This document shows, one piece after another, positions 5,538-8,761 of a stretch of DNA of 64,000 bases (positions are counted from its first letter, which is position 1; each line of letters opens with the position of its first letter). Below the pieces are notes generated by a model. That model was not told where the DNA came from. It saw only the letters and a list, made by a program, of their open reading frames with translations, and did not search any database. Origin of the DNA: Microbacterium sp. (lineage in GTDB: Bacteria; Actinomycetota; Actinomycetes; Actinomycetales; Microbacteriaceae); the NCBI GenBank assembly GCA_017306415.1, contig JAFKIL010000003.1, forward strand, positions 558,001 to 622,000. The letters are read 5' to 3'. The translations under genes and the position numbers were made by a program.

Positions 5538-5897
5538 ATGGCTGAGATCGTCCCGCTGCACCAGCCCTCGTCTCCCTCCGGCACGCACGACCGTCCGCGC
5601 GGCACCGCGCCCACGACCCCGCGACCGGCGGGGCTCGAGCCCCTCTGGCGCGAGGCGGTGGGCGGCGTGCTGCGCCGCGCGCGCCACGACCGCGGCGAGC
5701 GTCTGGCCGACACGGCGCGGCGCTCCGGGGTCTCCCCGCAGTACCTGTCCGAGATGGAGCGCGGGCTCAAGGAGCCGTCGAGCGAGATGCTCGCCGCCGT
5801 CGCGGGGGCGCTCGATCTGACCCTCCTCGACCTTACGGGCGCCGTCGCCGAACAGCTCCGTCCCGCCGCGCCCGCCGCGGTCGTCCGCGCCGCCTGA
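5538..5897 (+). CDS. XRE-family regulator of ClgR/PopR type
   Basis: The 119-residue protein has a disordered N-terminal 35 residues, then an XRE helix-turn-helix at about 40-100 (VGGVLRRARHDRGERLADTA, then VSPQYLSEMERG). The 'YLSE-x-ERG-x-KE-x-SSE-x-L' stretch is the hallmark of actinobacterial ClgR and PopR, activators of clp protease genes. The protein ends ...VVRAA. In Streptomyces, PopR and ClgR are themselves degraded by ClpP1P2 through C-terminal alanines, so this tail may be a degron (family knowledge plus inference). The clpP-like pair lies 1.4 kb downstream on the opposite strand, the expected type of target. ATG 5538 is chosen because it lies 6 nt after a -10 box; a longer frame upstream has no support. 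It could instead be an unrelated XRE regulator; the genomic pairing argues against that. Confidence 0.75.
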   Translation: MAEIVPLHQPSSPSGTHDRPRGTAPTTPRPAGLEPLWREAVGGVLRRARHDRGERLADTARRSGVSPQYLSEMERGLKEPSSEMLAAVAGALDLTLLDLTGAVAEQLRPAAPAAVVRAA

Positions 5898-5921
5898 CCG
5901 CCCCCACACCCCTCCTCCCCC

Positions 5922-5989
5922 ATCCGTTTACGGACGGAACACGCCGTCGAGTGGTCGGCGCACGCGGCGTGTCCAGTCCGTAAACGGAT
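5922..5989. repeat. Large imperfect inverted repeat containing two TCCGTWWACGGA sites
   Basis: The arms are 25 nt (5922-5946 and 5965-5989) with 23 of 25 positions matching and an 18-nt loop. Each arm carries a 12-bp palindrome-like site, TCCGT-TT-ACGGA at 5923-5934 and TCCGT-AA-ACGGA at 5977-5988, centred 54 bp apart. The right site falls where the -35 of the downstream polymerase gene should be. It could be a two-site operator, a terminator for the regulator gene, or both. Confidence 0.6.
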
Positions 5990-6003
5990 TGGGCGAGGGC
6001 GAG

Positions 6004-6009
6004 TAGCGT
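6004..6009 (+). promoter_or_regulatory. -10 box of the LigD-type polymerase gene (leaderless type)
   Basis: TAGCGT ends 7 nt before the GTG at 6017, which favours that start over the in-frame GTG at 6008 that overlaps the box. Confidence 0.45.
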
Positions 6010-6016
6010 GGCGGGC

Positions 6017-7240
6017 GTGAGCGGCGCAGACGAGATGTACCTCGAGGTCGACGGACACGACGTGCGCGTGTCGCATCCCGACAAGGTCGTCTTCCCCGAG
6101 CCGGGCCTGACCAAGCTCGACCTCGTCCGGTACTACGTGGCGGTCGCGGACGGCGCCCTCCGGGGCGCAGGCGGACGGCCGATGGTGCTGAAGCGCTTCG
6201 TGAAGGGCATCGAGGCCGAGCCCTTCTTCCAGAAGCGCGTGCCCGATCACCCCGACTACATCGACACCGCGGTGCTGCGGTACGCGTCCGGCAGTTCGGC
6301 CGAAGAGGCGGTGGTGCGGAATGCCGCCGGGCTCGCCTGGGTCGTGAACCTCGGATGCCTCGACCTCAACCCGCACGGCGTGCGCGCCGAAGACCTCGAC
6401 CACCCCGATGAGCTGCGCGTCGACCTGGACCCGATGCCGGGCGTGGACTGGAGTCAGATCGTCGACGTGGCCTTCGTCGCGCGCGAGGTGCTCGACGACC
6501 ACGGGCTCGTCGGGTGGCCGAAGACGAGCGGCTCGCGCGGCCTCCACATCCTGGTCCGCATCGCACCCGACCACGATTTCAAGGCCGTGCGCCTGGCGGC
6601 CGAGACGCTCGCGCGCGAGGTCGAGAACCGCGCCCCGGGCCTGGCCACCGCCCGGTGGTGGAAGGAGGAGCGTGGCGAGAGCGTCTTCGTCGACTTCAAC
6701 CAGAACGCGAAGGACCGGACGGTGGCATCCGCCTACTCCGTGCGGCCGCGACCGGATGCCCGCGTCTCGACGCCGCTGGACTGGGACGAGGTGCGCTCAC
6801 GCCGGCCCGAGGAGTTCACGGTGCGAACGGTGCTCGCGCGGTTCGCGGAGCGAGGCGACCCGCACGCCGGGATCGACGACGCGATCGGCACGCTCGATGG
6901 CCTGCTGCGGCTCGCCGACGAGCTCGGGCCGGCGGAGAAGCCGCCGCGCGGGTCCAGCGGCGACGGCCGCCGCGTGTCGACCATGCCGCTCATCGAGGTC
7001 GCCCGGACCAAGACGAAGCCCGAGGCCGAGCAGGCACTCGCGCAGTGGCGCGGCGCCCACCCCGCGGCATCCGCCCTGCTGCATCCCGCCGATGCGCTGA
7101 TCGACGGGATGCGCGGGTCGAGCTCGCTCTGGTACCGGGTGCGCATCAACCTGCAGCACGTCCCCGAGGCGGAGCGCCCGGAGCAGGAGCCGCTCCTCGA
7201 CGACTACGACCCGCCCTGGGGCCCCTCCACGCATCGCTGA
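6017..7240 (+). CDS. LigD-type primase-polymerase domain protein (stand-alone PolDom)
   Basis: The 407-residue protein covers an archaeo-eukaryotic primase-type polymerase domain as found in LigD, the bacterial non-homologous end-joining ligase. Visible markers are the opening VRVSHPDKVVFPEPGLTK, the metal-binding DLD motif (about Asp136/Asp138, in RVDLDPMPG), the SGSRGLHI motif near 171-178 and VFVDFNQNAKDRT near 225. It adds nucleotides, often ribonucleotides, at DNA ends. No ligase or phosphoesterase domain is attached and no ku gene is in the window, so it is a split or solo form. The last 110 residues are a loosely conserved tail. GTG 6017 is preferred because a TAGCGT box sits 7 nt upstream. 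It lies between the PopR-like regulator and the convergent clpP pair, and its promoter overlaps the inverted-repeat sites at 5922-5989. Confidence 0.85.
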   Translation: MSGADEMYLEVDGHDVRVSHPDKVVFPEPGLTKLDLVRYYVAVADGALRGAGGRPMVLKRFVKGIEAEPFFQKRVPDHPDYIDTAVLRYASGSSAEEAVVRNAAGLAWVVNLGCLDLNPHGVRAEDLDHPDELRVDLDPMPGVDWSQIVDVAFVAREVLDDHGLVGWPKTSGSRGLHILVRIAPDHDFKAVRLAAETLAREVENRAPGLATARWWKEERGESVFVDFNQNAKDRTVASAYSVRPRPDARVSTPLDWDEVRSRRPEEFTVRTVLARFAERGDPHAGIDDAIGTLDGLLRLADELGPAEKPPRGSSGDGRRVSTMPLIEVARTKTKPEAEQALAQWRGAHPAASALLHPADALIDGMRGSSSLWYRVRINLQHVPEAERPEQEPLLDDYDPPWGPSTHR

Positions 7241-7315
7241 CGCGCTGCGCGGAGCCTCTGGCGCCAGGGGCCCGGGCGGGCAGGACCTGGCCGGGCCGCT
7301 CCTGAGGCGGAGTGA

Positions 7316-7909
7316 TCAGGCCGCACCCCGCTCGAGCACGCGGTCGGCGAGGCCGTAGGCCACGGCATCCGTCGCGGTGAAGAAGCGGTCGCGGTCGGTG
7401 TCGGCGCGCAGGCGCGCGGCATCCTGACCCGTGTGGTGCGCGAGGATCTCCTCCACCTCGGCGCGCACGCGCACGAGCTCGTCAGCCTGGAGGATGAGGT
7501 CGGGCACCGCGCCGCGTCCCTGCCCGGCCGGCTGATGGAGCACGACCCGCGCGTGCGGCAGCACGGCGCGCTTCCCCGCCGCCCCGGCCGCGAGCATCAC
7601 CGCTCCGACGCCGACGGCCTGGCCGATGCAGGTCGTCGCGATGTCCGGGCGGACGTGCTGCATGGTGTCGTATACGGCGAGCATCGCGGACGGGTCGCCG
7701 CCCTCGCTGTTGATGTAGAGCTGGATGTCGCGATCCGGGTTGTCGGCGTCCAGGTGCAGCAGCTGCGCGATGAGGGCGTTGGCGACGCCGGCGTCGATGG
7801 CGGTGCCGAGGTAGACGACCCGTTCGGTGAGCAGGTGCGAGTAGACGTCCATGATCCGGTCTCCGCGCGGATGCTGCGCCACGACGTTGGGGATCGTGTA
7901 GCCGCTCAC
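7316..7909 (-). CDS. ClpP-like subunit lacking the catalytic serine (pseudo-protease, ClpR-like)
   Basis: The 197-residue protein is ClpP-like throughout: MDVYSHLLTERVVYLG, IQLYINSEGGDPSAMLAVYD, VVLHQPAGQ and ADTDRDRFFTATDAVAYGL. Catalytic His125 and Asp170 are present. The nucleophile motif, normally GQAASMG, reads GQAVGVG, so Gly100 replaces serine and no peptidase activity is expected. Such inactive subunits occur as ClpR in plastids and cyanobacteria, where they form mixed rings with active ClpP. The GTG start at 7909 overlaps the stop of the upstream active clpP by 4 nt (GTGA), implying coupled translation and stoichiometric synthesis. A longer reading frame upstream overlaps the other clpP and is not used. 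It is the second gene of the pair, convergent with the polymerase gene. Confidence 0.88.
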   Translation of the reverse strand: MSGYTIPNVVAQHPRGDRIMDVYSHLLTERVVYLGTAIDAGVANALIAQLLHLDADNPDRDIQLYINSEGGDPSAMLAVYDTMQHVRPDIATTCIGQAVGVGAVMLAAGAAGKRAVLPHARVVLHQPAGQGRGAVPDLILQADELVRVRAEVEEILAHHTGQDAARLRADTDRDRFFTATDAVAYGLADRVLERGAA

Positions 7910-8529
7910 GCCGCCGCCTCCGTCACGCCGAGGCCCGCTGCCCGACGGCGGCGCGGGGAGATCTGCGCGAAGTCGGCGACGACCTCGTCGATGAACCCGT
8001 ATTCCCGTGCCTCGGCGGCCGTGTACCAGTGGTCGTGGAGGGAGTCCTCGAAGACGCGGTCGATGCTCTGGCCGGTGTCGTCGGCGATGAGCCCGAGCAC
8101 GGTGTCGCGCATGTGGCGCAGGTCGCCGGCCTGAACCTCGACGTCGACCGCGGACCCGCCGATGCCCGACGATCCCTGATGCATCAGGATGCGTGCGTGC
8201 GGGAGGGCGCGTCTCTTGCCGCGTGTCCCCGCCGAGAGCAGGAACTGCCCCGCGCTGCACGCCAGTCCCAGGGCGAGGGTCGAGACATCGTTCGGGATGA
8301 GCCGCATCACGTCGCGGATCGCGAGCATCGACGGCACCGAGCCGCCGGGCGAGTTGATCCAGAGCGCGATGTCGGCGGCGGCATCCTCCGCAGCCAGTGC
8401 CAGGAGCTGCGTAGCCAGGAGCGTGCCGTTGTCGTCGTCGAGGGGTCCGTCGAGCACGAGCACGCGCTGCTGGTACAGCTCGCGGCGCGCCTCGCCTCCG
8501 AACACCGGGATCTTGCCTTCGTCTGCCAT
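7906..8529 (-). CDS. ClpP-family serine protease subunit (non-canonical, active-site complete)
   Basis: The 207-residue protein has the ClpP fold with WINSPGGSVPSMLAIRD, LACSAGQFLLSAG (nucleophile Ser92), RILMHQGSSG (His117) and, by alignment, Asp162 in EDSLHDHWYTAAEA. The triad appears complete, but the motifs deviate from housekeeping ClpP (ACSAG for AASMG, HDHWYT for RDRFLS). This suggests a specialised paralogue like the Streptomyces ClpP3/ClpP4 group rather than ClpP1/ClpP2, and no clpX is adjacent. ATG 8529 has a weak GGGGG upstream. The gene leads a two-gene operon with the serine-less paralogue, overlapping it by 4 nt. The nearby ClgR/PopR-like regulator is the likely controller (inference). 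The tail RRRRAAGLGVTEAAA is an extension beyond the usual ClpP end. Confidence 0.88.
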   Translation of the reverse strand: MADEGKIPVFGGEARRELYQQRVLVLDGPLDDDNGTLLATQLLALAAEDAAADIALWINSPGGSVPSMLAIRDVMRLIPNDVSTLALGLACSAGQFLLSAGTRGKRRALPHARILMHQGSSGIGGSAVDVEVQAGDLRHMRDTVLGLIADDTGQSIDRVFEDSLHDHWYTAAEAREYGFIDEVVADFAQISPRRRRAAGLGVTEAAA

Positions 8530-8612
8530 GCCCCCAGCGTCGCGCGGCCGCCCTGCCGCCGCAGCCCGATCCGCCGGGCGCGGATCCGCCGCCAGCGGGT
8601 TGCGCCGACCTC

Positions 8613-8702
8613 GCGCGCAGAACTCCACGGATTCGACGCCGGTGGGGCCCGATCCGACCCCTGCAGCCGCCGTCCGTCGCGGATCCGTGGAGTTCTGCGC
8701 GC
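8613..8702. repeat. Perfect 20-bp inverted repeat with 50-nt spacer (REP-like)
   Basis: GCGCGCAGAACTCCACGGAT (8613-8632) is repeated in perfect inverted orientation at 8683-8702. It lies in the 219-bp gap between the clpP operon start and the end of the glycosyltransferase gene, with the left arm about 85 bp upstream of the clpP start codon. It could be a dispersed intergenic element, a terminator for the glycosyltransferase, or a regulatory structure. Confidence 0.6.
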
Positions 8703-8707
8703 CGACT

Positions 8708-8761
8708 CGGCTCAGGTGCGGCGCCTCGGCTCAGGCGCGGCGCCCGGCTCAGGCGCGGCGC
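8708..8761. repeat. Three tandem copies of a 17-bp unit at the 3' end of the glycosyltransferase gene
   Basis: CGGCTCAGGYGCGGCGC occurs at 8708-8724, 8727-8743 and 8745-8761, separated by 2 and 1 nt. On the minus strand each copy contains the end of the coding sequence (..CGCCTGA), so the gene's final codons and stop have been triplicated; the first stop in reading order is at 8749-8751. Confidence 0.7.

Follow-up and report, generated by a model that had tools for sequence, protein, structure and literature searches.

The 64,000-nucleotide stretch of Microbacterium sp. contig JAFKIL010000003.1 analyzed here (positions 558,001 to 622,000; henceforth the window) carries an overlapping pair of clpP genes together with a gene for a PopR/ClgR-type regulator, and we propose that this locus probably provides a soil bacterium with a second Clp protease that is switched on when needed. 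The features concerned are the following:

8529-7906, minus strand: ClpP A, the catalytic subunit (207 amino acids; PF00574, E = 1.7e-53; docking-pocket positions A/W/L)
7909-7316, minus strand: ClpP B, the serine-less subunit (197 amino acids; PF00574, E = 3.5e-65; docking-pocket positions Q/Y/H)
5538-5897, plus strand: R, a PopR/ClgR-type XRE regulator (119 amino acids; ends in VVRAA; HTH_3 domain)
5889-5894, plus strand: codons of the two C-terminal alanines of R, a candidate Clp degron
6008-7240, plus strand: gene with a LigD polymerase domain, between R and B
8569-8585: predicted operator of the PopR type, formed by an inverted repeat (ATCCGC-N5-GCGGAT) that lies 39 bp upstream of the start codon of A
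8584-8600: second, weaker copy of this repeat (1 mismatch), overlapping the copy at 8569-8585

Both members of the pair are ClpP homologues by fold (peptidase S14, PF00574; CLP_protease scores of 181.6 bits for A and 219.7 bits for B at a cut-off of 20.2), and the GTG start codon of B overlaps the TGA stop codon of A (GTGA). The motif GLACSAGQF of A contains Ser92, and its catalytic triad of Ser92, His117, and Asp166 is intact as in active ClpP, while B shows GQAVGVGAV with Gly100 in place of the serine but retains His125 and Asp174. Because of this replacement, B cannot be filed as an active ClpP and instead matches the description of ClpR, a ClpP homologue without the catalytic triad residues. 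A sequence-only reading of this DNA had already recognized the GTGA overlap, Ser92 and His117 of A, Gly100 and His125 of B, and a ClgR/PopR-type regulator ending in VVRAA at 1.4 kb distance, all of which are borne out by reading frames, alignment, and the HTH_3 match; the catalytic aspartates proposed at the time, Asp162 and Asp170, have to be moved to Asp166 and Asp174, the second Asp of a D-x-x-x-D motif, according to alignment with E. coli ClpP. The gap between R and the clpP pair measures 1418 bp and is occupied by the LigD polymerase-domain gene.

Four PF00574 proteins are encoded in the genome, the A-B pair and a canonical ClpP1P2 pair whose genes adjoin one of four PF10431 (Clp-ATPase-type) genes, probably clpX judging by its position and size. 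R reaches 63.6 bits against the NCBIfam ClgR model NF041677, below the curated cut-off of 170. A separate ClgR, distinct from R, is encoded elsewhere in the genome (C4:38310-38540), scores above R (99.7 versus 64.2 bits), and ends in PELSFR without Ala-Ala.

Relatives of the pair were collected with profiles A1 and A2, built from the genus of the window with mostly Ser-less B proteins, and with profile A3, to which Ser-bearing B proteins had been added. Relatives of A were found in Microbacterium, Glycomyces, Actinomadura, Nonomuraea, Streptosporangium, Planobispora, and others (named-genome scan, best 80 of 556 used), and genome scans using the best 30 loci at most from each covered the family (299 genomes, best 30 loci), the class (394 genomes), and the phylum (396 genomes); the latter two, together with a scan of plasmid records, added more distant lineages. 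The 225 distinct pairs from Actinomycetota considered below are the B-clade pairs recovered by the three profiles, with identical B proteins counted once and close relatives weighing heavily (43 loci from the genus scan, 71 from named genomes, and 111 others). As a control, we used 35 distinct canonical clpP1P2 pairs obtained from 40 stretches around the next-best matches (20 within the genus and 20 elsewhere in the class; 3 without a pair, 2 duplicates); a further 12 "canonical" pairs were defined by an intact triad and the lack of a regulator and do not serve as a control.

The Ser-His-Asp triad (SHD) is intact in all 225 A proteins and in the canonical controls (35 of 35 for ClpP2; 34 of 35 for ClpP1, the other showing an alignment gap), while only 23 of 225 B proteins retain it. 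The remaining 202 are broken in 21 ways plus one incomplete case (AH with the Asp column missing). Written in the order of the triad, the most common forms are AHD (89), GHD (74), and SGD (10), followed by ADD, SHN, WHT, and SHA (3 each), SHS and EHH (2 each), and single cases of GDD, GND, GHA, AQD, WHD, EHN, GHE, SDD, SGE, SHH, GHQ, and FHN. Thus, the lesions comprise Ser to Ala, Gly, Trp, Glu, or Phe; His to Gly, Asp, Asn, or Gln; and Asp to Ala, Asn, Ser, His, Thr, Glu, or Gln. Among the best 80 of 556 relatives plus 30 family loci, B carries Gly or Ala in 110 of 110, a set with some repeats (including the window itself) drawn by profiles that favor Ser-less proteins. At a Streptomyces replicon with the clpP3-clpP4-popR layout (L188; we assign these names from layout and box, as the record lists generic products only), the first ClpP has a full triad and the second keeps its serine with the catalytic His replaced by Gly. 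The same replacement is common to ten more loci of this subclade (support 1.0), one of which also has Asp replaced by Glu, and in Embleya (L186), of the same family as Streptomyces, Ser of B is replaced by Ala.

Within Microbacterium, 48 of 99 sampled genomes encode an orthologue of B. Position 100 is Gly in 43 of these, Ala in 3, and Ser in 2, so the serine loss is not strain-specific, and orthologues with a normal serine, which the sequence-only reading had named as evidence that would speak against its own proposal, are confined to two of these 48. Pro follows position 100 in 17 of the 48 carriers (GPAAL), and two have Asp or Asn instead of His125; these different lesions imply that there was more than one way in which catalysis was lost. 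Purifying selection acts on both genes, with a median ratio of nonsynonymous to synonymous substitution rates (dN/dS) of 0.161 for A and 0.216 for B among 43 distinct genus sequences (gap-free columns, 129 for A and 103 for B; 237 and 250 of 903 pairs used, respectively), and we reject an assembly error or a pseudogene on these grounds. An origin from phages or plasmids was rejected as well: all 58 phage records matching B stay below 60% identity, and only three of 100 plasmid records matching A reach 60 to 80%, i.e., the Tsukamurella, Embleya, and Prescottella replicons that bear the module. The clpP-clpP-regulator modules of Tsukamurella (L185) and Prescottella (L187) lie on replicons recorded as plasmids, though the Tsukamurella record has ribosomal protein genes and may therefore be a piece of chromosome.

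In a FastTree phylogeny from which the triad columns were left out, the 225 B proteins form a single clade (overall support 0.73) that includes Streptomyces ClpP4 and excludes all 47 canonical sequences. This clade branches beside actinobacterial ClpP2-type proteins among the sequences used, which include no ClpR reference. Mapping the intact or dead status of B onto the tree requires at least 9 changes from an intact root, and the individual triad columns changed 16 (Ser), 7 (His), and 13 times (Asp), so that the dead-subunit pattern seems to have arisen several times within one bacterial group. The replacement codons fit descent from canonical TCG or TCC serine codons (Ala GCN, Trp TGG, Phe TTC). 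Two B proteins of the genus that keep their serine, L031 and L051, use TCG, one step from the alanine codon GCG, and therefore reversal and retention are both possible for them. Trp, Glu, or Phe occupies the position of the catalytic serine at L239, L244, L245, L259, L268, L274, L275, and L282, and such bulky or charged side chains could fill the active site.

The second half of the argument concerns the pocket at which Clp-ATPases dock. The pocket residues that have been mutated in Streptomyces presumably correspond to Y60, Y62, and F82 of E. coli ClpP, given the same spacing of 2 and 20 residues. At the third of these positions, an aromatic residue (F, Y, W, or H) is present in 224 of 225 B proteins, 35 of 35 canonical ClpP2, and 34 of 35 canonical ClpP1, but only in 10 of 225 A proteins; together with the intact triad in only 23 of 225 B proteins, this means that a docking residue has disappeared from A and catalysis from B. 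Both losses occur in 200 of 224 scored pairs, the pocket loss with an intact B in 14, neither loss in 9, and a dead B with the pocket kept in a single one. On the tree of these pairs, pocket loss in A takes 2 changes and death of B takes 8, which suggests that docking became one-sided first and that the triad was lost later, many times. For Streptomyces ClpP1P2, the cited work mutated Y76/Y78/Y98 of ClpP1 and S94/Y96/Y116 of ClpP2 and describes that only the ClpP2 pocket matters for the ATPases and only the ClpP1 serine for cutting, with full activity retained in a core carrying ClpP2-S131A (PMC9765437). The division of labor seen there appears to be fixed in the sequences of A and B, and what seems new here is this split between a partner fit only to cut and a partner fit only to dock.

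At 212 of 225 loci the pair is accompanied by the regulator, which is convergent to it in 209 of these 212; the stretches examined for the remaining 13 showed none. The gap between the two has a median of 41 bases, with 130 bases or less in 162 loci and more than 1 kb in 30. Its C-terminus is AA in 205 of the 212 loci, LAA in 188, and RAA, as in the window, in 3. When the regulator was used as the starting point (296 genomes), a B-type protein was present in 27 of the best 30 loci, 23 of them dead and 4 with SHD, though many of these loci had already been counted. ClgR-like genes beside intact ClpPs largely miss the Ala-Ala end (10 of 11, comprising nine loci from outside the B set plus L334 and L343); at L334 and L343, which are control pairs, and at L400, such a gene without Ala-Ala stands beside an intact pair. 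Four orphan PopR-like regulators with LAA or LSA ends (L381, L382, L383, and L384) have no ClpP within approximately 4 kb on either side.

A search for inverted repeats that assumed no pattern picked out TCTGCC-N3-GGCAGA as the one most often present upstream of A at Streptomyces-type loci (8 of 11 loci; 39 of 223 overall). This sequence equals one half of the PopR box, which is double in the cited description (PMC9775585), and the full double box is visible by eye at Streptomyces L188. With up to one mismatch, 189 of 223 loci have TCYGCC-N3-GGCRGA in the region upstream of A, compared to 0.9% in shuffles that move two-letter blocks; exact matches amount to 45% upstream of A versus 8.6% upstream of canonical clpP1, and the longer form ATCYGC-N5-GCRGAT with up to one mismatch to 72% versus 17%. 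The repeat of the window, ATCCGC-N5-GCGGAT at 8569-8585, is the sole exact match in the 64 kb, and 4 sites match with up to one mismatch versus 0.58 expected, a number reached by 1 of 100 shuffles for a pattern picked after seeing the relatives.

Our preferred reading, to which we assign a probability of about 0.75, is that A and B constitute a backup Clp core under PopR control, comparable to Streptomyces ClpP3P4, in which a ring of A would cut and a ring of dead B would dock, making B an actinobacterial analogue of ClpR. In Streptomyces, the cited passages describe PopR as turning on clpP3P4 and as being destroyed by ClpP1P2, so that the second core appears when the first one fails (PMC9765437 and PMC12607617), with ClpP1P2 recognizing Ala-Ala ends of ClgR, PopR, and Lon (PMC9775585). 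The anatomy of the window would fit the same circuit: housekeeping ClpP1P2 would keep R short-lived through its Ala-Ala end, and a blocked or saturated ClpP1P2 would let R accumulate, bind its predicted operator at 8569-8585, and switch on the A-B operon, whose products would assemble into a two-ring core where only A cuts and only B docks a Clp-ATPase. Several elements of the sequence-only reading are strengthened by the relatives, namely, B as a conserved ClpR-like dead partner (broken triads, purifying selection, and the docking position kept) and a PopR-type neighbor with a possible Ala-Ala degron (the prevalent AA end and the box upstream of A). Its connection of regulator and ClpP is better supported by the convergent, closely spaced genes of the relatives than by the 1.4 kb of the window. 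The proposal of a "self-sensing" protease is not supported, because it is the housekeeping ClpP1P2 that degrades PopR in the cited Streptomyces work (PMC9765437 and PMC12607617) and the circuit would therefore sense the loss of ClpP1P2. Nor are "mixed rings" supported; judging by the precedent of ClpP1P2 and by the way in which A and B have lost complementary residues, a heptamer of A stacked on a heptamer of B is more likely.

Several observations weigh against this reading. SHD is kept in 23 of 225 B proteins, including L031 and L051, which are nested in Ser-less groups, so triad loss is not obligatory, and about half of the sampled genus is without the pair. The association of pocket loss in A with death of B rests on 2 independent pairs. 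On the regulatory side, the RAA end of R is rare (3 of 212), the regions upstream of canonical clpP1 also match TCYGCC-N3-GGCRGA with up to one mismatch (23 of 35) and the box is therefore not PopR-specific, and of 20 further regulator-like genes not known to lie beside B, 11 (L381 to L384 and seven others) have no ClpP within approximately 4 kb on each side and 9 lie beside intact ClpPs, with the product of one of these 9, at L386, also ending in AA. AlphaFold models built from 20-row alignments were poor and too weak for use, with a mean predicted local distance difference test score (pLDDT) of 63 for A and 48 for B.

Among other explanations, we consider it unlikely, if the most credible of the alternatives, that B is an inhibitory or regulatory subunit that joins rings of A or of housekeeping ClpP and either makes these rings less active or protects them against active-site poisons, with no part in docking. 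A precedent would be Streptomyces ClpP-ADEP, which in the cited passage disrupts ClpP1 activated by acyldepsipeptides (ADEP) and pairs with ClpP2 (PMC12607617), but a docking position kept in B and lost in A fits docking, and at the loci counted the gene of B overlaps that of A or comes right after it (with pairing being a condition of the count). It is improbable that the pair is constitutive and R controls other genes such as the LigD-polymerase gene, behind which it lies 1.4 kb from the pair and on the same strand as that gene. While 30 of 212 regulators are similarly found more than 1 kb away, the 162 within 130 bases, the lack of a detectable LigD gene in 23 of 41 longer genus stretches, and the PopR-type box upstream of A all argue otherwise.

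We also disfavor, as quite improbable, that B is a decaying duplicate whose triad loss is neutral while the second clpP pair is being lost. The pair's absence from about half of the sampled genus and the damaged or cut copies of B in G025 and G079 and of A in G091, besides an N-interrupted locus in G064, are in line with decay; however, all other genus carriers keep a full B frame, median dN/dS is 0.216 for B against 0.161 for A, and random decay would neither spare the pocket, of which the aromatic residue persists in 224 of 225 B proteins, nor hit B alone. Least credible of all is that B retains peptidase activity through another residue or only within a mixed complex. Gly and Ala have no nucleophile, other lineages carry Trp, Glu, or Phe, and Pro directly after the serine position in 34 of 225 B proteins removes a backbone NH that, at this place, serves the oxyanion hole. 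What favors such activity are the 23 relatives with SHD in B and Listeria ClpP1 (Asn for Asp), which the cited passage describes as aligned into activity only in the complex with ClpP2 (PMC9765437).

The surroundings of the locus hold a few features of their own. The LigD primase-polymerase-domain protein encoded at 6008-7240 stands alone, with no ligase domain matched, and its gene, besides not being found in the 23 stretches mentioned above, is located beyond the regulator at L059 and L066. Just upstream of the predicted clpP-A operator, positions 8615-8700 hold an element of 86 bp bounded by terminal inverted repeats of 18 bp (GCGCAGAACTCCACGGAT), whose arms occur in 33 copies genome-wide (16 forward and 17 reverse; 0 for the reversed-pattern control), mostly paired across approximately 86 bp, and which may belong to a family like the repetitive extragenic palindrome doublets (REPINs) or miniature inverted-repeat transposable elements (MITEs). 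Between the regulator and the LigD gene, 5918-5993 contains a 29-nt inverted repeat (CCGTTTACGGAC core) with 9 arm matches in the genome including related copies elsewhere (control 0), possibly another small repeat family or a paired terminator. A 17-bp repeat (CGGCTCAGGCGCGGCGC) is present three times in tandem at 8708-8761, at and beyond the end of the glycosyltransferase gene.

A broader scenario has about even chances in our view: Actinomycetota would own a ClpR of repeated origin. In the PopR-controlled backup core, the cutting subunit would first have ceased to dock the ATPase, and the triad of the docking subunit would have been lost afterwards through various lesions on some 6 to 7 occasions, provided that the two nested serines are reversals. 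The outcome would be a protease for emergencies in which one ring cuts and the other docks, and in which serine-directed ClpP poisons could not attack half of the sites. This bears on why many bacteria keep two ClpPs and why Streptomyces ClpP2 keeps a triad that it barely uses, as evolution seems to have run subunit inactivation many times in one family with A as the intact partner and canonical ClpP2 as the intact control. The proposal predicts which subunit docks and which one cuts as well as that Streptomyces ClpP3P4 is a half-active core, which is relevant to its reported ADEP insensitivity (cited passage of PMC12607617) and to the interpretation of ClpP knock-outs and inhibitor screens in actinomycetes. 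Among the matches listed in a literature search, none reports a dead ClpP in actinobacteria or in this module, though the missing His of ClpP4 may be in print in the primary PopR papers (Viala 2000, 2002).

Among known systems, the locus most resembles Streptomyces clpP3-clpP4-popR: both have an overlapping clpP pair apart from housekeeping clpP1P2 and ClgR, a convergent PopR-type regulator paralogous to ClgR with an Ala-Ala end, and a box of the TCTGCC-N3-GGCAGA type upstream of the first clpP, and B falls into one clade with ClpP4. They differ in that ClpP4 of L188 keeps Ser and has Gly for His, while B of the window has Gly for Ser, and in the variant box ATCCGC-N5-GCGGAT and the RAA instead of LAA end of R. 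Canonical actinobacterial ClpP1P2 of Mycobacterium and Streptomyces is likewise an asymmetric core of two proteins, with ClpP1 cutting and ClpP2 docking the ATPase in the Streptomyces work cited (PMC9765437), but its subunits keep both triad (ClpP2 35 of 35, ClpP1 34 of 35) and docking aromatic (35 of 35 and 34 of 35), of which A and B each lost one. Listeria ClpP1 (Asn for Asp), which forms a heteromer with ClpP2, is another ClpP paralogue whose triad is defective, but it is not serine-less and the cited passage names no link to PopR (PMC9765437). The known precedent for a dead ClpP is ClpR of cyanobacteria and plastids, also found in apicoplasts, where a triad-defective homologue stands beside an active ClpP (cited passage of PMC7966870). 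B may work like ClpR; unlike ClpR, it appears to have arisen among the ClpP2-like proteins of actinobacteria, through lesions at single residues and apparently on several occasions, and the A-B core is probably an inducible backup rather than the main Clp core of the cell.

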